A stretch of 23,130 nucleotides of DNA, from positions 1 to 23,130 of IMG/VR virus record IMGVR_UViG_3300044984_003494. The stretch is one strand, 5' to 3'. The translations under genes and the position numbers were made by a program. Shown here in pieces: positions 8,803 through 21,245 of the stretch (position 1 is its first letter; each line of letters opens with the position of its first letter). The notes beneath the pieces were generated by a model that searched no databases, was not told the origin of the DNA, and saw only the letters and a program-made list of their open reading frames with translations. This DNA is from a virus.

Positions 8803-8812
8803 AGTGTAAAAA
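8803..8812 (+). promoter_or_regulatory. Late promoter motif of the small membrane protein
   Basis: AGTGTAAAAA lies with its GTG 14 bases before the ATG at 8818. It is one of five copies of the (A/G)GTGTAAWWA motif, all just upstream of tail, lysis or membrane protein genes. If TGTAAAAA acts as a -10 element, transcription would start exactly at the ATG. Confidence 0.55.
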
Positions 8813-8817
8813 TAGAC

Positions 8818-9015
8818 ATGACAGAAGTACTCATTCCTATCGTATTGGACATTGTTAAAGCTTACCCATGGTTTCCAGTGGTGACAAGCGCTGTCGCACT
8901 AGCTTCCGCTGTGGCTGCTGTGACTCCAACACCTAAAGCTGGAAGCACTTGGTCCAAAGTCTACAAAGTAGTCGATATTGTCGCTTTGAACTTTGGCAAA
9001 GCCAAGCAAAAATAA
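8818..9015 (+). CDS. Small membrane protein, possible accessory holin
   Basis: This 65-residue protein has two hydrophobic stretches, about residues 3-12 and 19-38 (the second ALASAVAAV-rich), and ends VYKVVDIVALNFGKAKQK. The C-terminal 'KVVDxLALNxGKAKN' pattern recurs in short phage membrane proteins that are often encoded near lysis genes and sometimes called putative holins. It has the late promoter motif directly upstream, which fits late expression. The strong terminator at 9041-9081 follows it. It could help the holin at 16622-16939, or be a membrane protein with another role; I would not assign holin function without tests. Confidence 0.65.
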   Translation: MTEVLIPIVLDIVKAYPWFPVVTSAVALASAVAAVTPTPKAGSTWSKVYKVVDIVALNFGKAKQK

Positions 9016-9040
9016 TCATTAAAATAGATTAAAAAATCCC

Positions 9041-9081
9041 ACTGAGCTAGAGAAATAAAACACTCTGGCTCAGTTTTTTTT
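9041..9081 (+). terminator. Intrinsic terminator
   Basis: ACTGAGCTAGAG (9041-9052) pairs with CTCTGGCTCAGT (9063-9074), 12 pairs with one G-T, around a loop of 10 bases (AAATAAAACA). A run of eight T follows (9074-9081). It ends the rIIA/rIIB/membrane protein unit and separates it from the promoter that starts at 9083. Confidence 0.9.
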
Positions 9082-9082
9082 G

Positions 9083-9111
9083 TTGACAAGCCGCAGATGA
9101 TATGAGATTAT
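9083..9111 (+). promoter_or_regulatory. Early promoter, predicted leaderless
   Basis: TTGACA (9083-9088), 17-base spacer, GATTAT (9106-9111). Seven bases downstream of the -10 is 9118, the A of the start ATG, so the mRNA should be leaderless. The -35 is the extended TTGTTGACA and starts just two bases after the preceding terminator's T-run. Confidence 0.72.
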
Positions 9112-9117
9112 CAGCTT

Positions 9118-9351
9118 ATGCAGAAACTGATACTAAGATACGATTGGTCAGTTCCTTACGAAGCGTCAGGAACTGGAGTCATCCCATTTGAATACGAATC
9201 ACTTGAACTTGCTTATGTTGACTTTTATGATTTACAAGAAAAATCTGAATACTATTTCTGGTTTTTGGGTCACGAATTTAACAAATCTGAAGATGTCGAA
9301 TTCTTTACTTTAGAAGAATGGTTTGAGCGTTATAAATTTAAACAACAATGA
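9118..9351 (+). CDS. Hypothetical acidic aromatic protein
   Basis: This 77-residue protein is very rich in tyrosine, tryptophan, phenylalanine and glutamate (DFYDLQEKSEYYFWFLGHEF). It has no cysteine, signal or membrane segment. It is the first gene of the right-hand plus-strand operon. The promoter is predicted to start transcription at the first base of its ATG. It overlaps the next gene by ATGA (9348-9351). No family recognised. The composition is reminiscent of small phage proteins that bind host proteins, but that is not evidence of function. Confidence 0.72.
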   Translation: MQKLILRYDWSVPYEASGTGVIPFEYESLELAYVDFYDLQEKSEYYFWFLGHEFNKSEDVEFFTLEEWFERYKFKQQ

Positions 9352-9740
9352 AAAAAAATCAATTAATCGAACAATTGCAAAAAATCAAAGGCAACCCCGA
9401 AATCAAAATGTGGAACGGGTATGTTGATGATTGGATGGATATTAAGCTTTGCGAACAAGAGTTTGTCAAAGAATCGGAGGACTTTATTCGTTGGGGTGTC
9501 GAAATGGAGTGGAAAGAAAAGAACCGATCGTGGGAAATCCCTGAAGAGGCACAGATTCAAATCGAAGAGGTTATAAAAGAAATGTTAAAAAATAGACAGT
9601 GGGAATTGCCGAATCAATATTTGCAAACAGAAGAAGATGAGAAGCGTTGGTATGGTAAAAATAAAAAGAAGTTTGTTTTAATCAACGGAAAAATTCGCGG
9701 CAAATCAATTGAAGATCGACTTGGAAAAGTCAGCTACTAA
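9348..9740 (+). CDS. Conserved phage protein of unknown function
   Basis: This 130-residue soluble protein begins MKKNQLIEQLQKIKGNPEIKMWNGYVDDWM. It ends GKSIEDRLGKVSY, where I recall similar phage proteins starting 'LIExLxxxxGNPxVxxWNGxVxDWM' and ending 'DRLGxxxY'. The middle is highly charged. This family is widespread in phages, and its function is not established. It is coupled to the preceding gene by ATGA, and its TAA is one base from the RNA ligase ATG (TAATATG), so all three should be co-expressed. Confidence 0.8.
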   Translation: MKKNQLIEQLQKIKGNPEIKMWNGYVDDWMDIKLCEQEFVKESEDFIRWGVEMEWKEKNRSWEIPEEAQIQIEEVIKEMLKNRQWELPNQYLQTEEDEKRWYGKNKKKFVLINGKIRGKSIEDRLGKVSY

Positions 9741-9741
9741 T

Positions 9742-10824
9742 ATGAAACTACCAAACAAAGAAGAATTTAATTTCAAAGATTGCGTCATCGCTGGTGACGA
9801 ATGTTGGCTCATTACACCAAAAGAAATCGGAGTTAAGTGGACAGAAGATACGATGAAATTTCGTTCGATGATCGTTCGCAAGTCTGATAATTTTATCGTA
9901 TCGCGTTCGTTTTCGAAATTTTTCAATTATACGGAGCAGCCAGATTTGGACAAATTTCCTCTGGATGAATCTTTTGTTGCTTATGAGAAATTAGATGGCA
10001 GCTTGCTCATTTGCGATCAATACAAAAACGATCTTCTGCTTAGAACTAGAGGCACGACAGATGCAAGACAAATGCCTAATGGTCATGAGATTGATTTTTT
10101 AATCAATAAATATAAAAAGTTTTTTGAATTCATCACAAGCGTTGATAGCAATTCGGAATTTACATTTTTGTGTGAGTGGCAGACTAATAGTAACGTGATT
10201 GTTATTGGTGGTTTTCCAGAGCCTAAATTGTCTCTGATTGGAATCATTAAAAAAGATTCTGGATGGATGGCATCGCAAAAATATTTAGACGAATTGGCTA
10301 TTGCTCTTGAAATCGAAAGACCTGTAAAATATTCCTACAACTCTATTCAAGAATGTCTTGAGGATGTTGAAATGTGGGTAGGTAGAGAGGGTGTCGTTCT
10401 ATACTCTGAATCGGGAAAAATGCGCAAGGCAAAGAGCAGTTGGTATTGTTCTGTTCACCGATTGGCAACTGGATTGCGTAGCACTTCTCACGTTTTAGAA
10501 TTCTTTTTGGAGTCTCCGAGATACACTGATTATCAGGATTTTTATAATTATACTGTCGATCACATCGACTTCGAAGTGGCAGAAAAAATCAAAAACGAGG
10601 CTAAATTAATTACCGATGCCTATGCTAAATTCGTAAAGTGCGTAGATAATATCAACCAGAGGATGCTATTCATTCGTGATTATTCCAATCGCAAAGAACA
10701 AGCAATGGCAATTCAACAAGAGTTTCGTGATTGGAAGACTGCTATTGCATTCATTCTACTCGATAATCGTAAGATTGATGATAAGGTCGTGCGCAAAGCA
10801 ATGGAGAAAATCTTAGAAATCTAA
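9742..10824 (+). CDS. rnlA: RNA ligase, T4 Rnl1-like
   Basis: This 360-residue protein has the nucleotidyltransferase motifs of the ATP-dependent Rnl1 group. Motif I is YEKLDGSL with the catalytic lysine at 83. Further motifs are RTRGT (101-105), FLCEW (142-146, motif III), REGVVLY (215-221, motif IV) and KMRKAK (226-231, motif V). The C-terminal 110 residues are helical, as in Rnl1. T4 Rnl1 is 374 residues long. It seals 5'-phosphate and 3'-hydroxyl RNA ends, classically to repair tRNA cut by host anticodon nucleases. The frame is open to 9709, but the ATG at 9742 lies one base after the upstream stop and matches the start style of its neighbours. See 18797-19734 for likely end-healing partners. 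Confidence 0.88.
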   Translation: MKLPNKEEFNFKDCVIAGDECWLITPKEIGVKWTEDTMKFRSMIVRKSDNFIVSRSFSKFFNYTEQPDLDKFPLDESFVAYEKLDGSLLICDQYKNDLLLRTRGTTDARQMPNGHEIDFLINKYKKFFEFITSVDSNSEFTFLCEWQTNSNVIVIGGFPEPKLSLIGIIKKDSGWMASQKYLDELAIALEIERPVKYSYNSIQECLEDVEMWVGREGVVLYSESGKMRKAKSSWYCSVHRLATGLRSTSHVLEFFLESPRYTDYQDFYNYTVDHIDFEVAEKIKNEAKLITDAYAKFVKCVDNINQRMLFIRDYSNRKEQAMAIQQEFRDWKTAIAFILLDNRKIDDKVVRKAMEKILEI

Positions 10825-10827
10825 AAC

Positions 10828-11000
10828 ATGATACTCATTAACATATTCAATGCATCTTGCCCAAAAGTGTCGTAGTGGATATTACTGATGACCAGAAGAT
10901 TATTGAAATCAATAATTTGTTTACAAGTGGTTGGTATAGCTGCGATCTGGAAAAGATTATCGCGGCAGTAAAGAAAGAACTTGACAAATTCAAACACTAA
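10828..11000 (+). CDS. Small ORF in two frames: possible -1 frameshift or broken gene
   Basis: An ATG at 10828, three bases after the ligase stop, opens a frame of 15 codons that stops at 10873. The -1 frame then reads cleanly to TAA at 10998-11000 for 44 residues with normal protein character (DITDDQKIIEI and a helical C-terminus). The frames join at CCCAAAA (10860-10866), read C CCA AAA in the first frame, exactly the X XXY YYZ slippery pattern for -1 frameshifting. The joined product would be about 57 residues. The alternatives are a one-base sequencing error, a degenerate gene, or a TTG start at 10857 in the second frame giving 47 residues. The promoter for the next gene overlaps the ORF's end. 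Confidence 0.45.
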
Positions 11001-11008
11001 CGTATATT
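10981..11008 (+). promoter_or_regulatory. Early promoter, predicted leaderless
   Basis: TTGACA (10981-10986), 16-base spacer, TATATT (11003-11008), the best -10 in the set. Seven bases further on is the A of the ATG at 11015, so a leaderless mRNA is expected. The -35 overlaps the last codons of the upstream small ORF. Confidence 0.75.
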
Positions 11009-11014
11009 GAGCGT

Positions 11015-11200
11015 ATGGAAAAAGATCCTGATATTCTTGACGTTTTGCGTCACCATGACAAGCTCCCCGCGATACTTCGCAATATGGATAACGAACTCAG
11101 CACCATTTGGCAAATCGTTGCCAGAGCGGAAGATGAGATTGTCAAGTTGAGAGAAGAAAACAAACAATTAAAAAAACAATTAAAAAATAATGAATTATGA
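11015..11200 (+). CDS. Hypothetical coiled-coil protein
   Basis: This 61-residue protein is almost entirely helical. Its C-terminal half (about 38-61) has a heptad-like pattern with many lysines and glutamates (IVKLREENKQLKKQLKNNEL), suggesting a short parallel coiled coil. It is the first gene after a predicted leaderless promoter and overlaps the next gene by 11 bases (ATG 11190 inside its end). No membrane segment or cysteine is present, and no family is recognised. Short coiled-coil proteins of this type often dimerise, but a partner cannot be inferred. Confidence 0.7.
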   Translation: MEKDPDILDVLRHHDKLPAILRNMDNELSTIWQIVARAEDEIVKLREENKQLKKQLKNNEL

Positions 11201-11420
11201 ATTTCAATGCTCTTTCTGTCGAAAGGCAGAAGCTTCATGGATTTATATGCCTAGTGATGAATACGCCTGTGATGACTGTGTGCCGCGAAAGTGTTCCTGT
11301 AATATGGAGCCGATAGATGGCAATTGGGAAAACGAAAATGAAAGCAATTGGGACTATATAAAAGATGAAAAAGGAAAACATTTGCCTTGCTGTGAATGGG
11401 AACAGATAACAATAGAATAA
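11190..11420 (+). CDS. Small zinc-ribbon-like protein
   Basis: This 76-residue protein has a cysteine pattern suited to metal binding: CSFC at residues 7-10, CDDC at about 28-31, CSC after PRK, then CC near the C-terminus. The stretch PSDEYACDDCVPRKCSC closely follows a pattern I recall in phage proteins of the form YxCDDCVPRGCSCN. Tryptophan and acidic residues fill the rest. It may bind zinc and contact nucleic acid or protein, but no function is established. It overlaps the previous gene by 11 bases and is followed after one base by the next ATG. Confidence 0.75.
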   Translation: MNYEFQCSFCRKAEASWIYMPSDEYACDDCVPRKCSCNMEPIDGNWENENESNWDYIKDEKGKHLPCCEWEQITIE

Positions 11421-11421
11421 T

Positions 11422-11751
11422 ATGACAATTTTCGAAAAACGAATGCAAGCAGTAATTTTAAAATTGCGAGAGCAAACTGAGTCTGCGGAATATCAACAAC
11501 TAACCAGTTGGCAAAAGACTGCATCTAATCGCCAAATACTCAGGGACAGTCGTGAGGGCGACTATCTGATTAAAGTCAGTCGCAACAACGTTCTTAACTT
11601 TTGCGGTGAAGATCAGCAATACATCGACTACACATACATTCGTCATGGATGGTTTGCTTTAGGACCTCGTAAAGATGCTCAATGGTTCACTGGTGCTGAA
11701 GCCTATGAATGGCTCAAAGGAAAGAAAGGATTCGCAGTAGTAAAAAGATAA
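11422..11751 (+). CDS. Hypothetical protein
   Basis: This 109-residue protein has a helical N-terminus (FEKRMQAVILKLREQ) and a C-terminal half with many aromatic residues (YIRHGWFALG, AQWFTGAEAYEWLKG). It has one cysteine and no membrane segment. The start follows AGAATAAT, giving the AATATG context without a Shine-Dalgarno sequence, and sits one base after the preceding stop. No family recognised. Confidence 0.7.
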   Translation: MTIFEKRMQAVILKLREQTESAEYQQLTSWQKTASNRQILRDSREGDYLIKVSRNNVLNFCGEDQQYIDYTYIRHGWFALGPRKDAQWFTGAEAYEWLKGKKGFAVVKR

Positions 11752-11755
11752 ACAT

Positions 11756-12157
11756 ATGAATAAAATAGATTTTTTAAATAAAGGTATACGATTCTTCAAG
11801 GATGAGATCAAAGAAATTCGTCGAACTGTTGAAATCTTTGAGAAACAAAGGGATGAAATCATTTTAAATTCTCAATTTACATGGAATGATAAGACATTCA
11901 ATGTTTCTGATATGCGATGGTTTAACGAATGGATGTATGAGGATTGTCCTTATACTCCAGGATTTAAAAGCTACACTGAAACATTGCATATATTTTCCAC
12001 AGACGGCAAATCTATCCATTTTAGCTTGCCTGAAAACAAACACGGATGGTATGATGAAAAACACCAACAATTCAAAGACTTCGAAGATTTCTTTATTGAC
12101 AAATTTGGAGTATCGTTTAAAATGGTATTAAAAAAAGGAGAAGTGAAAGAACAATAA
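11756..12157 (+). CDS. Hypothetical protein
   Basis: This 133-residue protein has a coiled-coil-like N-terminal third (KDEIKEIRRTVEIFEKQRDEI begins at about residue 15) and a beta-like, aromatic C-terminal part (SYTETLHIFSTDGKSIHFSL). It is soluble and carries a single cysteine. It lies four bases after the preceding stop, and its own TAA is one base from the next ATG (TAATATG). No function is recognised. Confidence 0.7.
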   Translation: MNKIDFLNKGIRFFKDEIKEIRRTVEIFEKQRDEIILNSQFTWNDKTFNVSDMRWFNEWMYEDCPYTPGFKSYTETLHIFSTDGKSIHFSLPENKHGWYDEKHQQFKDFEDFFIDKFGVSFKMVLKKGEVKEQ

Positions 12158-12158
12158 T

Positions 12159-12386
12159 ATGTTAGAAGAAAGCATGGAAATCGCAAGACAATATCTTGAG
12201 AAAGAAAAAAACGGTACATTAGACCTAAACAATCTAACTGAAGATGAACAACAAATGCGTATGTTTAGTAAAGCTTATGATGAGTCGGGTTTAGGTGAAT
12301 TGTTTGCGGATGCCGTTATTGAAGCAGCAAATGGTCAATGCGATAATAAGAGAATCTCTCAAGCAGTAGGAGCAAAATTGAATTGA
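12159..12386 (+). CDS. Hypothetical helical protein
   Basis: This 75-residue, acidic, entirely helical protein (ESMEIARQYLEKEK at the N-terminus; SGLGELFADAVIEAA in the middle) has one cysteine. It starts and ends one base from its neighbours (TAATATG, TGATATG), so it is co-translated with the thioredoxin-like gene. No recognised domain is present, and neither a regulatory nor a structural role can be chosen. Confidence 0.7.
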   Translation: MLEESMEIARQYLEKEKNGTLDLNNLTEDEQQMRMFSKAYDESGLGELFADAVIEAANGQCDNKRISQAVGAKLN

Positions 12387-12387
12387 T

Positions 12388-12624
12388 ATGAAAAAAATAC
12401 TAGCTACAAGTGCAACTTGCGGTCCATGTCACTTGCTGAAAGCAAGACTGGAAAAATCCGCAATATCAGTGAATATAAAAAGCATGAATGAACCCGAAAA
12501 CATTCCTTGGTTTCGTGAAAAAAGCATTAGAAATGTTCCTATGCTTATCATCGAAGACGATCAAGGAAATGAGATCGAGCGAATTACAGGCGTAGAAGAT
12601 ATTTATAACAATTTAAAACAATGA
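12388..12624 (+). CDS. Thioredoxin-like protein with CGPC motif
   Basis: This 78-residue protein has a thioredoxin/glutaredoxin-like fold: beta strand MKKILAT, then the redox motif CGPC at residues 11-14, helix HLLKARLE, and later the cis-proline segment [18 protein letters not shown], typical of the family. It is shorter than thioredoxin (about 105 residues), like phage NrdH- or glutaredoxin-like proteins. It could reduce ribonucleotide reductase or phage proteins, but no reductase gene is visible here. It overlaps the RlpA-like gene by ATGA (12621-12624), suggesting they are made together. Confidence 0.85.
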
Positions 12625-12965
12625 AAAAAACACTAATGGCACTATTAGCCACAACGATGTTAGCGAATGCTCTGGAGTATGGAAAAGCTTCTTTTTACTC
12701 TGTGAAAACAAACAGAGGATCAATTACTGCAAGCGGCGAAAGACTCAACGATACAAAGCTAACTGCTGCGCATAGAACTCTTCCTTTCGGCTCAATCGTT
12801 AAAGTGACTAATTTGTCCAATGGTCGATCTGTTATTGTAAGGATAAATGACAGAGGACCATTTATTTCGGGCAGAGTAATTGACGTTTCTCTTGCCGCAG
12901 CAACATCTCTCGACTTCAAACACAAAGGCATTACAAGAGTCAAAGTGGAAAATGTAAAAAAATAA
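12621..12965 (+). CDS. Exported RlpA-like double-psi beta-barrel protein
   Basis: This 114-residue protein has a signal peptide ([17 protein letters not shown], cleavage near residue 17) and a double-psi beta-barrel domain of the RlpA type. Marks are [30 protein letters not shown] and VRINDRGPF followed by [11 protein letters not shown]. RlpA proteins act on naked peptidoglycan glycans or bind them in the periplasm. The whole domain is present, but it has no SPOR domain, and the length is that of the isolated domain. It may help wall modification, DNA entry or lysis. It lies in the early or middle operon rather than beside the late endolysin, an unusual placement for a wall-active enzyme. Confidence 0.85.
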
Positions 12966-12966
12966 C

Positions 12967-12995
12967 TTGACAATCTTTAACTTATCTGTTTAAAT
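12967..12995 (+). promoter_or_regulatory. Early promoter of 13012 gene
   Basis: TTGACA (12967-12972), 17-base spacer, TTAAAT (12990-12995). Transcription should start about 10 bases before the ATG at 13012. No Shine-Dalgarno motif is present; CCCCCCGCAC lies between the -10 and the ATG. Confidence 0.62.
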
Positions 12996-13011
12996 CCCCC
13001 CGCACAATATT

Positions 13012-13410
13012 ATGGAAACTAATGAACTACAAACTAAGCTAGTCTTATGGCTAGAAAACGCTGCACAAGCAATTGGCGACTTTGCTGTAAAAGAAATCCC
13101 GCCTGTTATTCACGAATATCTTCAATGGAAATTCTTTGAAGCGTGTTATTGGGCAATTTTCCCAATTATTTGTTTTATTATCGGCGCATTGATATTTCGC
13201 TATGGCATGAAGATGATAAAAGATCCAAAATGCGATTATGATGGATTGGAAGTTGTGCCATCAGTAATCGGTGCGGTAGTGATCTTTGTTGCTACTATCG
13301 GAATACTGTCAAGCTCAGTCTCTCGTATTAAAACAGCAATTCAAATCAAGGTAGCCCCGAAAGTCTATCTTATCGAACAAGCCTCAGACATCATTAAAGG
13401 AAAAAAATAA
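13012..13410 (+). CDS. Two-segment phage membrane protein
   Basis: This 132-residue protein has hydrophobic stretches at about 46-64 (YWAIFPIICFIIGALIF) and 82-103 (VVPSVIGAVVIFVATIGIL). The N-terminal 40 residues are amphipathic, and the tail is basic (KVAPKVYLIEQASDIIKG). The 'APKxYLIExA' tail is a pattern I recall from small phage membrane proteins of unknown function. A loop of about 18 residues (MKMIKDPKCDYDGLEV) probably lies between the segments. It begins the third plus-strand unit from its own promoter and is followed after five bases by a small membrane ORF. It may affect the host membrane or exclude other phages, but that is guesswork. Confidence 0.75.
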   Translation: METNELQTKLVLWLENAAQAIGDFAVKEIPPVIHEYLQWKFFEACYWAIFPIICFIIGALIFRYGMKMIKDPKCDYDGLEVVPSVIGAVVIFVATIGILSSSVSRIKTAIQIKVAPKVYLIEQASDIIKGKK

Positions 13411-13415
13411 ATAAT

Positions 13416-13511
13416 ATGGACATACTACTTTCAACAACTAATGGATGGGACGCACTTATTACGTGTGTTATGTTTGGAGTTATCGCTATTTTATTTCTTT
13501 CAACACCATGA
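13416..13511 (+). CDS. 31-residue single-span membrane peptide
   Basis: A short ORF, missed by length filters, starts at ATG 13416 in an AATATG context and ends TGA at 13509-13511, overlapping the next start as ATGA (13508-13511). The product is 31 residues: a polar start with NGWDALIT and then one hydrophobic span (CVMFGVIAILFLSTP). It sits between a membrane protein gene and the next operon gene, which makes a real coding role likely. It is probably a small inner-membrane peptide of unknown function. Confidence 0.6.
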   Translation: MDILLSTTNGWDALITCVMFGVIAILFLSTP

Positions 13512-14803: not shown

Positions 14804-14813
14804 AGTGTAATTA
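14804..14813 (+). promoter_or_regulatory. Late promoter motif of the tail fibre-like gene
   Basis: AGTGTAATTA with GTG 15 bases before the ATG at 14820. It matches the late motif less well at the sixth to eighth base (ATT for AAA/T). Predicted transcription starts about one base before the ATG. Confidence 0.55.
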
Positions 14814-14819: not shown

Positions 14820-16277
14820 ATGAGTCCCCGCAAATTACAAAATGAAATAAAACAAGACTTTAGAGCTGATAATTCGGTTTGGTCAAGTTATAAAAATTCT
14901 ATTGCTAGTGAATTTGCGCAGATAAATTATCAGGATTTAAGTGATCACTTGTTGAGAGAATTCAACAGAAAAATTGTTAATTTGGGATTAAGCGGAGATT
15001 TGATGTTCGCCCCATTTGACGCTGGTTTTAGATTTACTGGATCGTCTATCGACACCACTATTCCATCTGCTCTTCTTGATTTTTACTTCGCAGAAGATCG
15101 AACGCTTGTTCCAAGAATTGGTGCGACTCCATCGTTCGCTAGAGCTTCTATTGGAAATTATTATGGACCAAATAGAGTGATTGTTAACGACTCAAACCGT
15201 TTAATGAGCCAAGGAGGTTCGGTTTTAAATGGAAGGATAATTTGGGAAAGTGTCGTTGGTGGTCCTGGGGAGTTTGATTATCAAGCGACATACAATGGCA
15301 CTAGATGGGCAATGAGAATCAGATATTGGACAAGTGGCGAAGACTACGAGCAATCTGATTACCTCGCTGCTCTTGGCAGTGAATGGCGACCTGAAGATGC
15401 TGATTGGAGCGCTACAGGTATTACTGTTGTTGCTGGCAATACCTTTGGTATTGTAAAAGCGGCTACCAATGAACCTCGTTTTGAATACGATCCTGTAACA
15501 TTAGAGTGTTTGGGATGGTTAGCAGAAGATTCATCGACAAATTATGTCTTTCCTTCTGCTACTCTGACCAGTCAGATTAGAACAGTTCCTCCTATAGCAC
15601 ATACTTTATCATTTTATGGCACGGGAACGGTAACGCTTGGAGGAACTCACTCTGCGACGATTGTTGGCACAGGCTCAACTACCCGCACGACTTATACATT
15701 CACTCCAAATTTTGGCAGTTTATCATTAGATGTGACAGGCAGCGTTACATCTGCACAGCTTGAAAGAAAATCGGCAGCTTCATCTTACATAGAAGCTGTA
15801 TCTGGTTCTGCAACAAGAAGCGCAGATGTTTTACAATATACAAATATTTCCAGTTTTTACAATGAAACTGCTGGAGTGCTTTTTTGTCAATTGATTGTGA
15901 AAGGAGTTTCTTCCGATTTCTCCTCTGCTTGGTTTGGTGGTTCCCAAAATGGAATACGAATGCAGAATAGTAATTCTTTAGCTGGAGTCATTACCAATGA
16001 TGAACAAACACAGTTTAGTAATACCATAGGGAGTGTTGCGTATGGAGCGTCAAGAAAAGCAGCTATGGCATTTCAAAATAATGGCAGCGCTGTTATTTGT
16101 TTAAATGGAACTCTTGGAACTCAAGATAATGAAGTGCTATTACCAAGATCAGAAAATAACGGCATAGAACCGACAAATTTAGTGCTATTTACTAATCAAA
16201 ATTCAATTATAAAGTCTTTCCGCTATTATTCTGTTCGCCTCTCTAACTCACAATTACAAACATTAACAAGTCCATGA
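14820..16277 (+). CDS. Tail fibre- or appendage-like protein with lectin-like C-terminus
   Basis: This 485-residue protein resembles a class of phage tail appendage proteins that contain FARAS (106-110) and later NEPRFEYDPVT (217-227), a signature seen as 'FTRAS...INEPRFDYDPVT...IEEARTNL' in fibre and collar-type proteins; here the last element is WLAEDSSTNYV. The C-terminal half is beta-rich and serine/glycine/threonine-rich. From about 345 it looks like a concanavalin-like jelly-roll (GVLFCQLIVKGVSS; ending VRLSNSQLQTLTS). A segment of about 80 residues (125-205) containing FDYQATYNGTRWAMR and two tryptophan-rich strands interrupts the two halves of the signature. It probably binds the cell surface. 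The late promoter motif precedes it, and it overlaps the next gene by ATGA. Confidence 0.75.
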   Translation: MSPRKLQNEIKQDFRADNSVWSSYKNSIASEFAQINYQDLSDHLLREFNRKIVNLGLSGDLMFAPFDAGFRFTGSSIDTTIPSALLDFYFAEDRTLVPRIGATPSFARASIGNYYGPNRVIVNDSNRLMSQGGSVLNGRIIWESVVGGPGEFDYQATYNGTRWAMRIRYWTSGEDYEQSDYLAALGSEWRPEDADWSATGITVVAGNTFGIVKAATNEPRFEYDPVTLECLGWLAEDSSTNYVFPSATLTSQIRTVPPIAHTLSFYGTGTVTLGGTHSATIVGTGSTTRTTYTFTPNFGSLSLDVTGSVTSAQLERKSAASSYIEAVSGSATRSADVLQYTNISSFYNETAGVLFCQLIVKGVSSDFSSAWFGGSQNGIRMQNSNSLAGVITNDEQTQFSNTIGSVAYGASRKAAMAFQNNGSAVICLNGTLGTQDNEVLLPRSENNGIEPTNLVLFTNQNSIIKSFRYYSVRLSNSQLQTLTSP

Positions 16278-16606
16278 TTGACTATATTTTAAAATTCCCA
16301 AATAAAGAAACAGCTCAACAATTTGGTTTAGCCAATGGTTTTGCTACCCAAAACGAAGATGGTGAAATCGTCACCAATCTTGCAAATCTCGAATACGCTT
16401 TGCATATACATGGCGAATATTATCCAGAACCGCAAATCGAAAGCGAAGAAATTCCAGTTGGCGATGGTCATTGGTGGGTTCTTTTCCGCGATATTTCAGA
16501 AATGCCAATTCCAGATGGCGGAGAGCAATACATCTATTGGTCAAGTGCATCTGGATCTCCGCGCCCCACTGGAGAAGGTGTGCCAAATACTTGGTGGGCA
16601 GAATAA
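16274..16606 (+). CDS. Hypothetical tail-associated protein
   Basis: This 110-residue acidic protein is rich in tryptophan, proline and glycine in its second half (GDGHWWVLFRDI; PRPTGEGVPNTWWAE at the end). It is coupled to the fibre-like gene by an ATGA overlap (16274-16277), so the two products are probably made in similar amounts. This suggests a tail structural or assembly role such as a fibre chaperone. The sequence does not match the known lambda Tfa-type chaperones as far as I can see. It faces the holin gene across a 15-base gap. Confidence 0.65.
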   Translation: MIDYILKFPNKETAQQFGLANGFATQNEDGEIVTNLANLEYALHIHGEYYPEPQIESEEIPVGDGHWWVLFRDISEMPIPDGGEQYIYWSSASGSPRPTGEGVPNTWWAE

Positions 16607-16607
16607 T

Positions 16608-16623
16608 AAAAGATTAATCTTTT
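16608..16623. terminator. Possible bidirectional terminator (AT palindrome)
   Basis: AAAAGATTAATCTTTT is a perfect 16-base palindrome placed exactly between two convergent genes, overlapping the holin's stop codon. It can form a 6-bp stem with a TTAA loop, flanked by T-rich sequence on the plus side (TACTTTTT). The stem is weak, so termination efficiency is uncertain. Confidence 0.4.
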
Positions 16624-16939
16624 ACTTTTTGATGTATTTTTCGGGATCTTCTTGGAATCGTTTGCCAAGTTTTATGATTCCATTGATTATTTCTGGACTA
16701 ATGACACCAATAATGCCATAGCAAATGGCTTTATAGAGCGACGAAATATCTGTCTGCTCCAAAATAAACCACGCAATAGAAGAAGAGATTGCCGCTGCGG
16801 TGATCTTTTTTGCGTATTCGAGAATACCAACTTTTTTCTGAGCCGACAATAAGCGAGCTAACATTGCTGCTGCACCGATCAGAGGAATGACCCAACCTCC
16901 GTCTAAAAACTCCTTGATTATTGATTTTTCTGGCTCCAT
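16622..16939 (-). CDS. Holin
   Basis: This 105-residue membrane protein has three hydrophobic stretches at about 16-33 (VIPLIGAAAMLARLL), 46-60 (ITAAAISSSIAWFIL) and 68-86 (ICYGIIGVISPEIINGI). The N-terminus is acidic and the C-terminus strongly charged (KRFQEDPEKYIKK). This architecture and the SPEIINGIIKL motif resemble LydA-type holins of phage P1 and similar holins. Holins form the membrane lesion that releases the endolysin at a set time. The gene directly follows the endolysin gene on the same strand and has its own copy of the late promoter motif. No second start giving an antiholin is evident. Confidence 0.82.
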   Translation of the reverse strand: MEPEKSIIKEFLDGGWVIPLIGAAAMLARLLSAQKKVGILEYAKKITAAAISSSIAWFILEQTDISSLYKAICYGIIGVISPEIINGIIKLGKRFQEDPEKYIKK

Positions 16940-16946
16940 TTGCAGG

Positions 16947-16956
16947 TATTTACACT
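16947..16956 (-). promoter_or_regulatory. Late promoter motif of the holin gene
   Basis: AGTGTAAATA on the minus strand, with its GTG 16 bases before the holin ATG (16939). If TGTAAATA works like the T4 late TATAAATA box, the transcript starts about two bases before the ATG. Confidence 0.6.
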
Positions 16957-16964
16957 AGATTTTT

Positions 16965-17567
16965 TTATTTAAAATGCTTTTTTAATGCTTCGTAAAATTT
17001 AGCAAATTCTTTTGGATTAAGGTCTTTTTTACGGTTTGGAGCAATCGTTCTGTGGTCAGTAACCATGTCAAGAGTGATGTTCCATTTCTTCATGAGTGGC
17101 ACGATATATTCAATCGCAGACTCGATTGCGGCAGGTTGTAGCGGCTCTGTGTAGGAACTACGCTCAAATGCCACACCAATAGAACAGTTATTGAGGCTAG
17201 TCATACCCTTAAACGAGCTTACACCAGCATGATACGCTCTATTGTCATCGCGATTCGTGATCGTGCGTCTGCCGTCACGCGCAATGATGCAATGATAACT
17301 AGCGTAAAGTCTTTCGCCAGTTGATGGATTGTTGATTTTACTAGTCCAATCAATTGAGCCGTTGTAATTACCTTCTGTATCGTGCATAACAATAGCCTTG
17401 GGAGCGATTTTACGGGCGCGTGGTCCGTTTGTTTGAGGCGACAAAGCAACTGTTTCAGGATATTTATTAGTCATTATATTTGGTGTCTTAGGGGTAGAAA
17501 GCGGCAAACTTGGGGTCGAAGATTTCGCCCCAAGTAAACTTGTAAGTTTTGAGAAAATGTTTTTCAC
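16965..17567 (-). CDS. Endolysin, N-acetylmuramoyl-L-alanine amidase
   Basis: This 200-residue amidase_2-type enzyme cleaves the bond between muramic acid and L-alanine. It has MHDTEG (61-66, zinc ligand H62), YHCIIARDG (91-99), YHAG (112-115, H113) and DHRTIAPNRKKDLNP (171-185). The last supplies H172 and D182, ten residues apart as in AmpD. The N-terminal 40 residues are a serine/proline linker after a basic amphipathic segment (MKNIFSKLTSLLG). The start codon is GTG, chosen because the late promoter motif lies 16 bases upstream; a later ATG (residue 32) is less well supported. It has no signal-anchor sequence, so it depends on the holin. Confidence 0.92.
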   Translation of the reverse strand: MKNIFSKLTSLLGAKSSTPSLPLSTPKTPNIMTNKYPETVALSPQTNGPRARKIAPKAIVMHDTEGNYNGSIDWTSKINNPSTGERLYASYHCIIARDGRRTITNRDDNRAYHAGVSSFKGMTSLNNCSIGVAFERSSYTEPLQPAAIESAIEYIVPLMKKWNITLDMVTDHRTIAPNRKKDLNPKEFAKFYEALKKHFK

Positions 17568-17574
17568 TTTCTTG

Positions 17575-17584
17575 TATTTACACC
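17575..17584 (-). promoter_or_regulatory. Late promoter motif of the endolysin gene
   Basis: GGTGTAAATA on the minus strand, with its GTG 16 bases before the GTG start codon at 17567. It is the copy with G instead of A at the first base. It supports the GTG as the real start. Confidence 0.6.
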
Positions 17585-17591
17585 GTATTTT

Positions 17592-17858
17592 TTAAGTATT
17601 CTTCATTTCTTCAATAAATTGACAGATCATTTTGTCTCGCTCGGTTGCTTTTCGAAGTCTGAATTCAGTCTCAAAGGAATGAGAAGAGTAAACAGTCGTT
17701 TTATGAAACACCCAATCTTCGTGATTATCGCCATCTGCACGTATCGAATAGGACGTTTTCCAATCAAAAACAGCACAAATATACTTTATCGCGACTTCTT
17801 TTGCCTCAGTTGGAGACAGATCGACGCTAATGATTTGAGACACTTTTGCCGAAATCAT
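17592..17858 (-). CDS. Hypothetical protein
   Basis: This 88-residue protein has a helical N-terminal region (LSPTEAKEVAIKYICAVF) and a beta-rich centre (WVFHKTTVYSSHSFETEF) with a charged C-terminus. It has two cysteines. Its start overlaps the upstream gene by ATGA, and the endolysin's late promoter motif lies in the gap just downstream of its stop. The domain is not recognised. Confidence 0.72.
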   Translation of the reverse strand: MISAKVSQIISVDLSPTEAKEVAIKYICAVFDWKTSYSIRADGDNHEDWVFHKTTVYSSHSFETEFRLRKATERDKMICQFIEEMKNT

Positions 17859-18139
17859 GATAATACAACCTCCAATGGCGCAAACTGTTCGATTTCTCGG
17901 CAGAAACCTTGAACTTGCAGGGTGTCGAAGTTTTTCGCCGCCATTTTAAGTATCAAGATTTTTTGCATAAATTTGCAATAGTCGTCGTTTTGATAAAACA
18001 ATTCACCAGTTTTTGAATCACTAATGTAATTGTCTCCGATTTTGTATCGCAAAGGATCAATGACTAGCTCCAGTGGGTGATAGCTGCAAAACCCCAAGAC
18101 ATAATTAACAATATCGTGGTATTTGATGTTGATTTTCAT
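17855..18139 (-). CDS. Hypothetical protein
   Basis: This 94-residue protein has mixed helix and strand, three cysteines and a leucine-rich C-terminus (QGFCREIEQFAPLEVVL). It begins one base after the stop of thyX in a TAATATG context and overlaps the next gene by ATGA. Its N-terminus (MKINIKYHDIVNYVLGF) is a plausible strand-helix pair. No function is recognised; it may be a small product co-expressed with ThyX. Confidence 0.72.
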   Translation of the reverse strand: MKINIKYHDIVNYVLGFCSYHPLELVIDPLRYKIGDNYISDSKTGELFYQNDDYCKFMQKILILKMAAKNFDTLQVQGFCREIEQFAPLEVVLS

Positions 18140-18140
18140 A

Positions 18141-18797
18141 TTAGTAGCCCCAGGCTTTTAGTGTGTGTTCAAAAGGATTTCCATCTATTTGTTTAACAAG
18201 CTGTAGCATTTCGTCAGCAATTTCGCGAATTTCTTTTTGAGCATGTTCGCTGCGACGAAGCTTAATGAAATTGGCGAAAGAACGCATGTTAAACATAACG
18301 TCTCCTTCAATTTGACTGTTGTAAGTCTTAAAGAAGCGAGCGGATTCTTTTGCGCGTTTGCGTCCAAGAACAGGCTCAAGGTCTTTTAAACAAGCATGAT
18401 AGAGTTCGTTTCCTGCTTTTGTATATGATTCCAACATTTCTGCCCAGTCTTTGCCACCAGCTTTTATACAATTTTCATTAGGATAGATACCTTTCCAATC
18501 TTCTGGAATATAAAACTTATCTTCTTTTAGTTCTTTATATCGAGCAGACTCAGCATTGATGGATGCAATACGATGTTTAAGCAAATGAATGTGACTAGCG
18601 ATTTCCGTATCAACTAGGAAGTGAACCACTCCCTTTTCAAACGGTGTCTCATGACCATTACTCCATAGCATGTCGATTAGTTTTGGGATTCGAGACTTCT
18701 TATCCTCCGTCAAATCGCGACTTGTGGAAGTCCATGCGCTACAAGCGATAATTTCGTCGCTTCCATAATGCCCTAGCAGGGTTACTTTATTATTCAT
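18141..18797 (-). CDS. thyX: Flavin-dependent thymidylate synthase ThyX
   Basis: This 218-residue enzyme is of ThyX length and carries the family motif at residues 74-84: KHRIASINAES, where most members have RHRxxSxNExS, with H75, R76 and S84 in place. It also has ETPFEKGVVHFLV (50-62) upstream, and ARYKEL follows. ThyX makes dTMP from dUMP using FAD, NADPH and methylene-tetrahydrofolate, supplying thymidine for phage DNA synthesis. The first arginine of the motif is lysine here, a small deviation. It is followed closely by the small gene at 17855 and shares a TAATG junction with the kinase-like gene upstream, so it is probably co-expressed with the RNA repair-like pair. Confidence 0.93.
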   Translation of the reverse strand: MNNKVTLLGHYGSDEIIACSAWTSTSRDLTEDKKSRIPKLIDMLWSNGHETPFEKGVVHFLVDTEIASHIHLLKHRIASINAESARYKELKEDKFYIPEDWKGIYPNENCIKAGGKDWAEMLESYTKAGNELYHACLKDLEPVLGRKRAKESARFFKTYNSQIEGDVMFNMRSFANFIKLRRSEHAQKEIREIADEMLQLVKQIDGNPFEHTLKAWGY

Positions 18798-19207
18798 TAA
18801 ATAAGTTTTAGAGAGTTGATGATGTTGTTTAATTGACGCGATTTTGCATCAATGGGAACATTGTGAATGTCAGTATTTCCATGGCGATTTTCAATCACAA
18901 AATAGAATACATCTGCCCCGATTTCTTTTGCCTTTTCATCGTAAAAGGCGAATTCTTGCTCTCGACTATTAGTATTTGCTACCACAACGGTATCAACTTG
19001 ATCGTCTTGCAATGCCGCAACAAAAGCTTTACGACAATATTCGTGAGCCTCTGGAGTGCGTGATGCTTCAAATTGATACTTGCCTTCATCAGAAGTAAAG
19101 AAATCATCGGCGCAGCAGATTTTCACATTGCCGCCAAACAGTGTCGCAGCAGCGGATTTGCCAGATCCACTTACTCCGCGCAGGATAATTACATTTTTAT
19201 TTTTCAC
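18797..19207 (-). CDS. Polynucleotide kinase-like P-loop protein
   Basis: This 136-residue kinase is of the AAA_33/zeta-toxin-like P-loop group. The Walker A motif GVSGSGKS spans residues 11-18, followed by CCADDFFTSDEGKYQFE (aspartates near 34-35). The C-terminal part has NRHGNTDIHNVP, a pattern typical of the T4 polynucleotide kinase and N4BP2 kinase group, then a conserved arginine (KSRQL). Such enzymes phosphorylate 5'-hydroxyl ends of DNA or RNA using ATP. It lacks any phosphatase domain, but the phosphoesterase immediately upstream overlaps it by ATGA (19204-19207). Together these could act as end-healing enzymes before the RNA ligase at 9742-10824. Nucleotide or other small-molecule kinase activity is an alternative. 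Confidence 0.83.
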   Translation of the reverse strand: MKNKNVIILRGVSGSGKSAAATLFGGNVKICCADDFFTSDEGKYQFEASRTPEAHEYCRKAFVAALQDDQVDTVVVANTNSREQEFAFYDEKAKEIGADVFYFVIENRHGNTDIHNVPIDAKSRQLNNIINSLKLI

Positions 19208-19734
19208 TTGATATTTAGTTTTGCTTTGATTTCTTCAAGAGAGGTGAAGATGGTCTTGCCTCCAGTTTTTTCATAAACATGATCGACGCACGTATTGATG
19301 TATTGAGGATCATCTTTCCAAGTGCCATACCACGTTTTCTTTTTGATGCTTTTGGAATGAACATGTCCGTGAATGTTTGCTACTCGACCTCGCATTTCAA
19401 GCGGGTGAATAGGACAATGCGTTAGCCACATTCGCTTATATGACAACATGCCATAGATTTCATCAAACACTTCTGCTTGGAGTTTTGTTGAAACATAATC
19501 ATCGTGATTTCCTTTGATTAGAATTTTGCGACCACGAAGATTTTTGAATACCGCCAAAGCTTCATCAGAGAACGCTGCATCGCCCATGACGTAAACGGTG
19601 TCATTTTTGCGAATAGTTTGTTGCCAATGATGACAAAAGATTGTCGTGTTGTCTTCCACAGATTTTACCCATGGTCGATATTTAGGGATGTTTTTGTGAC
19701 CCAAGTGTGGGTCGCCTACGAAATATGCACTCAT
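19204..19734 (-). CDS. Calcineurin-like phosphoesterase
   Basis: This 176-residue metallophosphoesterase has GDPHLGHKNI at residues 7-16, MGDAAF at 50-55, GNHDD at 75-79, THCPIHP at 105-111 and HGHVH at 122-126. The D8, H10, D52, N76, H106 and H122/H124 ligand set is complete. Known relatives include DNA/RNA phosphodiesterases and phosphatases. Its position beside the polynucleotide kinase-like gene, sharing an ATGA, fits a role in removing a 3'-phosphate or cyclic phosphate from broken RNA ends. That is by analogy to the bacterial Pnkp protein, which fuses kinase, metallophosphoesterase and ligase parts. The first glycine-histidine pattern is GDPHLGH rather than the more usual GDxHG, common among small phage members. 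Its substrate is unknown. Confidence 0.88.
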   Translation of the reverse strand: MSAYFVGDPHLGHKNIPKYRPWVKSVEDNTTIFCHHWQQTIRKNDTVYVMGDAAFSDEALAVFKNLRGRKILIKGNHDDYVSTKLQAEVFDEIYGMLSYKRMWLTHCPIHPLEMRGRVANIHGHVHSKSIKKKTWYGTWKDDPQYINTCVDHVYEKTGGKTIFTSLEEIKAKLNIK

Positions 19735-19937
19735 TTTGATTTACCTTGATCTACGAAATCGTAGAGTTTAAATGGGTTCGTGACATTGGCGAAATCGAAC
19801 TCGCTATATTGAAAAACATAACCGCCGATTTTCTTTGCGCAATCTCTTGCCCATTGTTCTGCACCTTTTAATGCTCCATCATACGATTGATGGAAGTTAT
19901 TTTTTTTGTCGAATACTCTGTATTTGCTATGTGCCAT
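19731..19937 (-). CDS. Hypothetical protein
   Basis: This 68-residue protein has a likely strand at the start (KYRVFDKK), a helix (SYDGALKGAEQWARDCAKKIG) and a mixed C-terminus. It has one cysteine and no membrane segment. It overlaps the phosphoesterase start by ATGA (19731-19734) and starts in an ACAATATG context, so its expression is linked to the RNA repair-like pair. It might be an accessory to them, but nothing in its sequence shows this. No family recognised. Confidence 0.7.
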   Translation of the reverse strand: MAHSKYRVFDKKNNFHQSYDGALKGAEQWARDCAKKIGGYVFQYSEFDFANVTNPFKLYDFVDQGKSK

Positions 19938-19941
19938 ATTG

Positions 19942-20004
19942 TTATTTTGTTGTTTCTAGGATAATTAGAATGATTATTGCTGTTATTGTTTGAAAGTTAT
20001 TCAT
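19942..20004 (-). CDS. 20-residue hydrophobic peptide ORF
   Basis: The only gap in this operon, between the genes at 19997-20242 and 19731-19937, holds a 20-codon ORF (ATG 20002-20004 to TAA 19942-19944). It starts with MNNFQTITA and continues with one short hydrophobic run of nine isoleucine, leucine and similar residues, ending ETTK. The start overlaps the previous gene's end by eight bases, and the next ATG is four bases after its stop. It could be a small membrane peptide. An ORF of this length can also occur by chance. Confidence 0.35.
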   Translation of the reverse strand: MNNFQTITAIIILIILETTK

Positions 20005-20242
20005 AAGTTAATTTGAATGCAACTCGTCCAGTGTCGAAATTGTTGGTAACGTAACAGTCGATGAATATTTCGTTGCCGTGAATTTGCGTGGAGTTAATTT
20101 GCATTATGTATTGAACTTTGTCAAGAACTATTTTGTGTAATTTTTCGGGCATTGACTCAAATTGCTCACAAACAGGTTCGTCGCCAAGCTTCCATGGGAA
20201 GAGATGGTTCTGACCGATAATTGTTACTTTAGGCATTTTCAT
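19997..20242 (-). CDS. Hypothetical protein
   Basis: This 81-residue protein has a beta-rich C-terminus (EIFIDCYVTNNFDTGRVAFKL) and a helix in the middle (EKLHKIVLDKVQYIMQI). It has two cysteines and no membrane segment. Its start overlaps the end of the preceding gene by ATGA (20239-20242). A TTGACA inside it (near 20112-20117, minus strand) lacks a good -10 and is not counted as a promoter. No function is recognised. Confidence 0.7.
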   Translation of the reverse strand: MKMPKVTIIGQNHLFPWKLGDEPVCEQFESMPEKLHKIVLDKVQYIMQINSTQIHGNEIFIDCYVTNNFDTGRVAFKLTYE

Positions 20243-20757
20243 TGTTTTTTAAGTATTGTGTGTTTGATTCCGTCAACGATGTCTGTCATTTTAATCAAAG
20301 AAAGAAGATCTTTACGCCCTCTTCTTTGATAGCCAGTATAGAGTGGCATACGAACCTCTACGTTGACTTGAGAAAGATCGCATAGCTTTTCACAGAGCCG
20401 CGCCAAAAGCTTTCTATCTACCAGCAGGAAGTCGTGTTCACGCTCAAATGCAATGATGTTTGAAGCTCCATAAAGCCAACCTCTTTTTCCTTGCACGTTG
20501 GCAAACTCAATCCACACTACATCATCGTTGTATTTGTCATCTGCGCGTTTTACTTTCTTGCGCGATTTTACATCCACTGCTGTTCTTGGAAGCCTCGATC
20601 CTTCGACCCAATAGTCAATGTGACGAATCTCTTCTTGAAAAGAGGATTTCTCGCAAGATAAACCTGCTTTTCTAATAGAGCTTTCAAACGAGGACTCAGC
20701 TTTATCGCCGCTCTCGAATGCCTCGCCTGTTTTGTCGTATCTGTTTTTATAAGCCAT
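20239..20757 (-). CDS. Conserved phage protein, possible PD-(D/E)XK nuclease fold
   Basis: This 172-residue protein starts at the ATG at 20755-20757 (MAYKNRYDKTGEAFE). The frame is open to 20808, but the promoter at 20767-20793 lies there and the extension overlaps the previous gene. Features: HIDYWVEGSRLPRTAVDVKSRKKVK (broken over 46-70), where the D, then DVKxR, could be the acidic residue and DxK core of a restriction-nuclease-like fold, then WIEFANVQGKRGWLYGASNIIAFE. The latter pattern, 'WxEFxNVQGKxGWLYG', recurs in phage proteins I recall, and a nuclease role has been suggested for such folds. No experiment is known to me. The C-terminal part is strongly charged. Confidence 0.72.
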   Translation of the reverse strand: MAYKNRYDKTGEAFESGDKAESSFESSIRKAGLSCEKSSFQEEIRHIDYWVEGSRLPRTAVDVKSRKKVKRADDKYNDDVVWIEFANVQGKRGWLYGASNIIAFEREHDFLLVDRKLLARLCEKLCDLSQVNVEVRMPLYTGYQRRGRKDLLSLIKMTDIVDGIKHTILKKQ

Positions 20758-21205
20758 CTCTGCTATATGATACCAAAATCTTGCCATTGTCAAGGGAAAA
20801 TTTTGCACTAGGATCTTTTTTTTGGATGAAATTTAAAAATGGTTTTAATTTGTGCTTGCGTTTAATTTCTGTGGCGAATGGAAGATGACAATTATTGTGA
20901 TTCCAATATTGGCTGCGAAAGACGCAAAAATCTTTCAACATTGTCGCGGCATCGCCAAAAATAAATTCTATTGTTATTTGAGATTCTTCGCGCTTAATGG
21001 AAACAAAGAATCTTAAATGATCGTTTTGCATGAGATAAAAAATGTCAGTCGCGCCTACAAGATATTCGTAGTATTTTTTAATTTGTGTTGTGCGAATTGA
21101 TGGATTTTTAATTGAGCAAAAATCATAAGGCTTAGAGCGAATGCAAAAATCTTCAAATGCTGATTGAACTACAGGATTGCTGTTGTTTAACTGCTGAAAG
21201 TTCAT
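20747..21205 (-). CDS. Hypothetical phage protein
   Basis: This 152-residue protein has an alpha/beta mix with several aromatic and basic stretches: TQIKKYYEYLVGATDIFYLMQ, EFIFGDAATMLKDFCVF and IKRKHKLKPFLNFIQKK. It has four cysteines and no membrane segment. The pattern of alternating strand and helix could suit an acyltransferase-like or other alpha/beta fold, but no motif settles this. It is the first gene of the minus-strand lysis and repair operon, and its end overlaps the next gene's start by 11 bases. The upstream 31 bases hold promoter-like sequences for both strands. Confidence 0.72.
   Translation of the reverse strand: MNFQQLNNSNPVVQSAFEDFCIRSKPYDFCSIKNPSIRTTQIKKYYEYLVGATDIFYLMQNDHLRFFVSIKREESQITIEFIFGDAATMLKDFCVFRSQYWNHNNCHLPFATEIKRKHKLKPFLNFIQKKDPSAKFSLDNGKILVSYSRDGL
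20767..20793 (-). promoter_or_regulatory. Early promoter of the nuclease-fold protein
   Basis: On the minus strand TTGACA (20788-20793), 15-base spacer, TATCAT (20767-20772). Transcription is predicted three bases before the ATG at 20757. The short spacer makes it weaker than the others. Confidence 0.55.
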
Positions 21206-21245
21206 TTTTTTAATTTATAATAGTGTAAATTAGAGTATGGCACAA
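21206..21245. promoter_or_regulatory. Overlapping divergent promoters in 31-bp gap
   Basis: On the minus strand TATTAT (21217-21222) lies 11 bases before the ATG at 21205, with a weak -35 TTGTGC (21240-21245) 17 bases upstream, partly inside the gpL gene. On the plus strand the late motif AGTGTAAATT (21222-21231) lies before the ATG at 21237. The two elements touch at base 21222. Confidence 0.5.
21222..21231 (+). promoter_or_regulatory. Late promoter motif of the tail tip gene
   Basis: AGTGTAAATT with GTG 14 bases before the ATG at 21237. If TGTAAATT is the -10 element, transcription starts at the first base of the ATG. It is one of five copies in the window. Confidence 0.58.

Follow-up and report, generated by a model that had tools for sequence, protein, structure and literature searches.

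GTGTAA, a strict hexamer locked to start codons, as a probable phage sigma factor-dependent promoter in a group of uncultivated phages

Introduction

Promoters driven by phage-encoded sigma factors are known. The late promoters of T4 are not known to contain a -35 element, nor sigma factors of the T4 gp55 type a region 4. The T4 late box TATAAATA has been described as occupying positions -13 to -6 (PMC1524935), and for phiEco32 the phage sigma factor gp36 has been described as acting on the host core polymerase, with transcription starting 6-8 bases downstream of the promoter element (PMC8948821). The present analysis deals with the hexamer GTGTAA in the virus record IMGVR_UViG_3300044984_003494, whose entire length of 23,130 bases is referred to as the window. 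The hexamer precedes lysis and tail genes at an almost constant distance from their start codons and probably belongs to a promoter that is read by a phage sigma factor.

Two further sequences are of particular importance for the comparison. Because of its 99.994% identity to the window across 16,863 bases, the 62 kb contig G001 evidently represents the same phage. G002, a relative with a patchy identity of 75-97%, comprises 133,831 bases and carries a terminal repeat of 95 bases, so its genome is probably complete.

The GTGTAA element in the window

The window contains 11 copies of GTGTAA, six of them inside and five outside genes. All five extragenic copies stand 14-16 bases upstream of a start codon, the distance being counted from the GTG of the motif to the start codon; one of the intragenic copies lies 20 bases upstream of an internal ATG. 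The five elements and the genes downstream of them are:

8803..8812, plus strand: GTGTAA promoter-like element AGTGTAAAAA, GTG at 8804, 14 bases upstream of ATG 8818
8818..9015, plus strand: small protein, PHROG 9685 (function unknown), 2.4e-8
14804..14813, plus strand: element AGTGTAATTA, GTG at 14805, 15 bases upstream of ATG 14820
14820..16277, plus strand: tail protein, PHROG 5939, 8.7e-29
16947..16956, minus strand: element AGTGTAAATA, GTG at 16955, 16 bases upstream of ATG 16939
16622..16939, minus strand: holin-like protein, PF16083, weak match of 8e-4 below the cut-off
17575..17584, minus strand: element GGTGTAAATA, GTG at 17583, 16 bases upstream of GTG 17567
16965..17567, minus strand: endolysin, Amidase_2, 8.5e-21, GTG start
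21222..21231, plus strand: element AGTGTAAATT, GTG at 21223, 14 bases upstream of ATG 21237
21237..23129, plus strand: gpL-like tail tip gene, 4.9e-42, running off the window

The observation of the element upstream of these five start codons was confirmed, and the distances of 14, 15, 16, 16 and 14 bases are exactly those given in the first-pass annotation of the window. The consensus (A/G)GTGTAAWWA that had been proposed there holds for four of the five sites, but not for the one before ATG 21237, which reads AGTGTAAATT and ends in T. The true core of the motif is GTGTAA.

Among the 45 gene starts of the window (gene calls were made with a simple script of our own and start positions are approximate) five carry GTGTAA at a distance of 14-16 bases versus 0.03 expected (Poisson P about 3e-10). 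Other hexamers reach a maximum of three at these distances, and in 2000 sets of random starts the count of GTGTAA was at most one. The pattern RGTGTAAWWA was matched by four sites versus 0.6 expected, a number reached in none of 100 shuffles. Since the shorter forms TGTAAWWA and GTGTAAATA with one mismatch were not enriched by number alone, the observed counts being reached in 24 and 31 of 100 shuffles, the signal in the window is one of position and not of motif number.

Enrichment and conservation in related genomes

According to an unbiased count of hexamers by distance, GTGTAA at distance 14 ranks first in the relatives G008 (11 versus 0.02 expected), G009 (10 versus 0.024) and G010 (7 versus 0.028). 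In G002 it takes the second and third rank at distances 14 and 15 (six and six versus 0.042 each), with TTTCCC at distance 10 on top. Pooling of six genomes revealed GTGTAA at 14-16 bases in 59 of 693 gene starts, where 4.9 were expected, and each of its 18 one-letter variants at only 0-2 starts. The pattern in combination with a start codon was found 163 times versus 30 times for the reversed control pattern in 18 records, some of which are near copies; these totals include G005, apparently a near copy of G009, which was left out of the script counts. A set of 74 non-redundant sites was compiled by removing near-duplicates as well as sites that lie in called genes, have short flanks or stand at distances other than 12-18. 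In this set the distance is 14 at 41 sites, 15 at 14, 16 at eight, 17 at six and another value at five.

The motif is conserved together with the genes that it precedes. It is present in 43 of 48 reciprocal orthologues of 15 motif genes of G002 in five other genomes, compared to three of 255 orthologues of G002 genes without motif; this count covers all G002 genes with reciprocal orthologues and permits nearby alternative in-frame starts. Retention is complete in the orthologues of the G002 copies of the gpL gene (5/5), the holin gene (4/4) and the gene of the small protein (4/4), as well as in those of the ribonucleotide reductase small subunit (5/5) and an ATP-dependent protease (5/5). Partial loss was observed for a DUF5824 gene (2/5), and at gene 126 the motif is missing (0/1). 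The flanks at four conserved motif genes, which were chosen by us, share an identity of just 37-43%. The first-pass annotation had proposed a search of the complete phage genome for the motif; on the contig of the same phage and in relatives the motif does recur before additional structural and lysis genes.

In G002 the motif genes include those of the endolysin (identified via the window copy), the holin, gpL, two virion structural PHROG matches (1645, 8510) and a protein of 664 amino acids encoded after the terminase. The genes encoding PhoH, ribonucleotide reductase, the ATP-dependent protease, a ferredoxin-like protein and several unknowns also belong to this group. The earlier description of the motif genes as structural and lysis genes thus applies to the lysis and tail genes, but is too narrow with respect to ribonucleotide reductase, PhoH, the protease and others. 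The ferredoxin match (PHROG 3704, 2.5e-52) is located at G002:8275-8922 on the minus strand, downstream of a GTGTAA element.

Architecture of the probable promoter and predicted transcription start

Apart from the hexamer, the start codon and the base preceding it, the 74 sites display only a mild A/T preference directly after the hexamer. None of the columns in the 50 upstream bases exceeds 0.23 bits and there is, therefore, no -35 element, in agreement with the previous statement that nothing like TTGACA accompanies the motif.

The position of the element is that of an operon head. Among the 73 motif genes, 25 lie behind a gene of the opposite strand, 36 are separated from a same-strand gene by at least 15 bases and 12 by 5-14 bases, and none lies less than 5 bases behind a same-strand gene. 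This last, tightly operon-internal position is taken by 317 of the 569 genes that have neither type of promoter (0/73 versus 317/569, Fisher P 3e-24) and by seven of 44 genes with a TTGACA promoter; in this count alternative in-frame starts were likewise permitted, and a start was shifted to an alternative start having the motif. Shine-Dalgarno-like sequences were detected in none of the 73 motif genes and occur at chance level in the 569 other genes (0.06 versus 0.066 in shuffles). Based on the sequence analysis GTGTAA very probably represents a promoter element.

If TGTAAATA is aligned with the T4 late box, +1 would coincide with the initial base of the start codon where the distance is 14. 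Transcription start sites usually have a pyrimidine at -1 followed by a purine at +1. The base before the start codon is a pyrimidine at all 41 sites at distance 14 (38 ATG, 3 GTG) versus 353 of 606 motif-less ATG starts (58%), as expected if transcription starts at the start codon. The first-pass annotation had placed +1 at the start codon or 0-2 bases before it; the pyrimidine-purine step expected for a start on the A of ATG is present at 41 of 41 sites. Since only 12 of the 29 sites at distances 15-18 have such a step at that position, the start point probably shifts slightly at these sites, presumably to a position a few bases upstream of the start codon. With a start on or near the start codon the messages would be leaderless or nearly so, and we infer this state for the mRNAs from GTGTAA sites.

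The contrasting host-type promoters

A second type of promoter, which resembles the host-type TTGACA promoter, is found at other genes of these phages and differs from the element common to the lysis and tail genes. Two such sites in the window are:

5446..5487, plus strand: contrast promoter TTGACA-N17-TACTAT, with its end 10 bases upstream of ATG 5485 of the rIIA-like gene
20755..20793, minus strand: contrast promoter TTGACA-N15-TATCAT, with its end 9 bases upstream of a start codon

Many of the host-type transcripts look nearly leaderless as well, as had been noted before, because 17 of the 27 TTGACA-N15-19-TAnnnT sites in G002 end 7-11 bases upstream of a start codon. The genes behind TTGACA sites encode rIIA- and rIIB-like proteins, a DnaB-like helicase, part of a DNA polymerase and an operon of dUTPase, dNMP kinase, sigma factor and the protein SSB. 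The two gene sets fit a split into middle/late genes (GTGTAA) and early genes (TTGACA).

TTTCCC at distance 10, which precedes seven G002 genes, was considered as a third class and rejected, since such stretches lie downstream of the -10 element in several TTGACA promoters. The rIIA-like and rIIB-like genes adjoin each other at 5443-8500 of the window, each preceded by a TTGACA promoter-like site.

Two phage sigma factors

The first-pass annotation had predicted a phage-encoded late sigma factor or activator outside the window. The relatives indeed encode two putative sigma factors, and the gene for one of them, hereafter the core sigma, is located on G001, the contig of the window's own phage.

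The core sigma consists of 189 amino acids and is of the sigma70 type (PHROG 351, 2.6e-6). It was detected in all seven genomes first taken and in 17 of 23 records, it has 126 relatives in the viral collection, and its gene lies in an operon with those of dUTPase and SSB. The G002 protein is 44-62% identical to those of five relatives, and the identity is 97% in G001. Its structural model (pLDDT 81, pTM 0.49) matches the folds of sigma32/SigH and other chains of the sigma70 family (best E 8e-5, TM about 0.3-0.4).

The second protein, of about 237 amino acids, resembles sigma factors of the extracytoplasmic function (ECF) group. The G002 copy matches PHROG 1740 at 2e-6, the sigma match covering residues 145-219, and Sigma70_r2 (PF04542) was matched with E-values of 6e-5 and 8e-5, which narrowly miss the cut-off. 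The fold matches of its model (pLDDT 76, pTM 0.39) are headed by sigma chains, most of them ECF. Four cysteines (96, 99, 108, 120) are invariant in all 34 aligned sequences and lie in an extra segment between the two sigma domains. These 34 sequences (alignment A3) stem from 42 of 80 loci that were checked, of which two with a stop codon were excluded and not mended; alignment A2 comprises 37 sequences, namely those of 35 of the 80 loci together with the copies from G002 and G014.

The ECF-like sigma was detected in 14 of the 23 records and has 218 relatives in the viral collection. Among 84,980 species genomes, a pattern-based scan yielded just three loci, in assemblies titled MAG or uncultured, so that the gene of the ECF-like sigma looks like a phage gene. 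It is located near the PhoH and terminase genes, downstream of a small gene for a zinc-ribbon-like protein. By eye, GTGTAA was absent at 12-18 bases upstream of this gene pair in all 39 stretches inspected, and TTGA...TATAAT-like boxes were often present. These upstream features, together with a hairpin that separates the pair from PhoH (z -4.4 in G009, less clear in G002 with z -2.1), suggest that the ECF-like sigma may be made early. In front of the zinc-ribbon gene, a conserved block resembling TNGAAAAA ... CATTATAAT was noticed by eye in many of the loci L209-L287. It stops a few bases short of the start codon and is possibly a further promoter subtype.

The phage collection searched yielded no close isolate by either the helicase or the sigma genes: the top-ranked match of the DnaB-like helicase is 24.5% identical, the core sigma has two weak matches, and for the ECF-like sigma there was no match at E up to 0.01.

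Which sigma factor probably reads the element

Both sigma factors were found in eight of the 23 records (G002, G009, G020, G022-G026), only the core sigma in nine and only the ECF-like sigma in six. The four core-only records that were checked (G007, G008, G010, G014) also lack the terminase and PhoH genes and are, therefore, probably incomplete. At E up to 1, the core-sigma profile gave no match in 16 records that carry the ECF-like sigma, five of them among the six ECF-only records. In this pool, which consists of three whole contigs and thirteen loci of 14-21 kb including some near-duplicates, GTGTAA is the top hexamer at 13-17 bases (47 versus 6.2 expected); GTGTAT (15 versus 2.9, nine of the 15 in G028) and GTGTAC (11 versus 1.5) are also raised.

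G028 (105 kb) has the packaging genes, the rII-like genes and the ECF-like sigma in common with the other phages and lacks the replication genes and the core sigma. Its top hexamer is GTGTAT (10 versus 1.5), and it has three GTGTAA sites before GTG codons too. The host of G028 may use Shine-Dalgarno sequences, as AAGGAG likewise ranks high among the hexamers of this phage at 12-18 bases. G030 combines replication genes, the ECF-like sigma and GTGTAA, and a core-sigma match is absent. Inspection by eye revealed no simple rule by which residues of the ECF-like sigma would account for GTGTAA as opposed to GTGTAT.

Because GTGTAA persists where just the ECF-like sigma was found and G028 uses GTGTAT, this protein is favoured as the better candidate reader. 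We consider it probable that a phage sigma factor reads GTGTAA, and somewhat more plausible than not that the ECF-like sigma is this factor.

The proposed explanation, which we regard as likely in its entirety, is the following. GTGTAA(A/T)(A/T)(A/T) would be a phage-specific, -10-like promoter of a single element. In a family of uncultivated phages it would head the transcription units of genes for lysis, tail and virion and of some metabolic genes, with transcription starting at the A of the start codon or, at longer distances, a few bases upstream of it. The ECF-like sigma encoded near PhoH and terminase would be its likelier reader and the 189-residue sigma70-type protein the second candidate. 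Both sigma operons would be switched on from promoters of the host sigma70 type, resulting in an early-to-late cascade. The element, its spacing, its place at operon heads, the missing -35 and Shine-Dalgarno sequences, the sigma genes and their fold likeness can be read from the data directly; transcription from the element, its start point and timing and the match of sigma factor and promoter are what we infer from them. The interpretation given in the first-pass annotation is supported.

Several observations weigh against this explanation. The enrichment of GTGTAA is weak in G007 (2 and 2) and G014 (3 at distance 17), L274 has one site and L283 is without any enrichment. For 13 of 31 extragenic GTGTAA sites in G002 and 13 of 29 in G008 no start codon lies at 12-18 bases. 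Chance gene ends reading GTG-TAA do overlap the sites of one gene; as a source of the signal they were rejected, since other NNNTAA hexamers are far less enriched (next best ratio 2.9 versus 12). Concerning the sigma factors, the fold E-value of the ECF-like model is weak (7e-3), the TM-scores of both models are low (about 0.25-0.42), and a sequence-profile search against the PDB returned no significant sigma chain for either protein (best WhiG, E 0.19). Both proteins apparently retain a region-4-like domain, although no -35 element is seen. Nine of the 23 records contain the core sigma without the ECF-like sigma, the large close relatives have both, and the choice between the two proteins draws on co-occurrence in partly redundant, mostly incomplete records.

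Alternative explanations

The same promoter class might be read by the 189-residue core sigma, with the ECF-like sigma serving another, unseen class. The distribution of the core sigma, which occurs in all the genomes first taken and in nine records in which the ECF-like sigma was not found, speaks for this assignment. In three of seven genomes (G002, G001 and G009) a host-type TTGACA promoter precedes its operon, so the core sigma would be made early. However, GTGTAA is still enriched across the 16 records without a core-sigma match, many of them fragments, although the same profile matched 17 of the 23 records, and G028 lacks the core sigma yet uses GTGTAT. We therefore consider this assignment rather unlikely.

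Less probable still is that a phage activator binds to the motif, or that the motif is a host sigma70 promoter dependent on a co-activator. Sigma70 requires an A at the second position of TATAAT. The absence of a -35 element is in line with activator-dependent promoters and the spacing suits a -10 element, yet TGTAAW lacks this A. Furthermore, the hexamer hardly tolerates change, and no candidate activator turned up, though no search aimed at activators was made.

A role of the motif as translation signal would explain its fixed distance from the start codon in phages whose Shine-Dalgarno-like sequences are at chance level. We reject it as highly improbable because motif genes are never tightly operon-internal: the genes in that position need translation as well, but lack the motif. 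The strict pyrimidine before the start codon at distance 14 does not favour it either.

Equally improbable is a phage RNA polymerase as the reader: the strict hexamer would suit it, and short promoters have been described for the phiKZ and AR9 polymerases (PMC5312081), but the beta'-type domain PF04998 was matched in none of nine records (controls 14/14 positive), a PHROG scan of 40 of the 182 called G002 genes gave no RNA polymerase match, and a search for single-subunit polymerases was uninformative as it had no working positive control.

Other genes in the window

A pair of YopX-family genes (1.1e-20 and 6.1e-15) is located at 541-1319 on the minus strand, and the adjoining open reading frame 143-544 looks similar by eye. 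The minus strand also encodes a UvdE-type UV endonuclease (4466-5380, 1.3e-32) and a ThyX thymidylate synthase (18141-18797, 4.6e-35), the latter 60% identical to that of a 60.8-kb uncultured Manatee Spring phage. A T4-type RNA ligase (9709-10824, plus strand; best PHROG 'RNA ligase and tail fiber protein attachment catalyst') is found in a genome that has a lambda-like gpL tail gene.

Comparison with known systems

The element offers a handle, drawn from sequence alone, on gene regulation in a phage group for which the phage collection offered no close isolate by helicase or sigma genes, and it predicts operon heads, exact start codons and probable transcription start sites. If the proposed explanation is true, a sigma factor reading one strict hexamer without -35 element and giving leaderless products would be a compact model of start specification by sigma domains and possibly an orthogonal promoter-sigma pair. 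It is an evenly balanced question whether a previously undescribed family of ECF-like sigma factors with a zinc-knuckle-like four-cysteine insert fires -35-less GTGTA(A/T) promoters exactly on the start codon in a large group of uncultivated phages, with a second phage sigma in the same cascade. In the literature searched, mostly at the level of titles and abstracts, no report of a GTGTAA phage promoter was noticed.

The T4 late promoters (gp55, gp33, gp45) are similar in their short -10-like box (PMC1524935). The second position of the box, however, is G in the present phages and A in T4, and the T4-like variant GTATAA was matched twice versus 0.8 expected, compared to 59 versus 4.9 for GTGTAA, by which the sites were defined. 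Unlike gp55, both sigma factors are predicted to have two domains with a helical C-terminal domain in both models. Membership in the gp55 system was rejected on account of the box and the sigma architecture. A sliding clamp of the gp45 type was found in none of nine records, in a search with weak controls (just one of 14 named controls matched, below the cut-off).

The late promoters of phage 7-11 (GTAAtg-16-aCTA) likewise serve late genes and a phage sigma factor, gp47, but are described with two elements and a spacer (PMC8948821), whereas the present class has one element. In Deinococcus-Thermus a -10 element a few bases before open reading frames is reported to give rise to leaderless mRNA (PMC12340547). 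That motif is the bacteria's own -10 element (PMC12340547), whereas GTGTAA is not TATAAT-like and has been studied here in phages only. Leaderless middle and late messages have also been described for the Thermus phage phiYS40 (PMC3594737), which belongs to a different phage group.

The promoters of phiEco32 gp36 (tAATGTAtA) resemble the present ones in that they are described as a single element without -35 at middle and late genes (PMC8948821). They differ in sequence; gp36 is described as lacking region-4 homology, whereas both sigma factors of the present phages seem to have such a domain, and the parts of the source consulted mention no fixed distance to the start codon (PMC8948821). By analogy, the gp36 promoters, the T4 late promoters and the leaderless messages of phiYS40 appear to be nearest in mechanism. 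Whereas promoters driven by phage sigma factors are an established theme, what appears to be new in the phages described here is the coupling of an unusually strict hexamer to the start codon.

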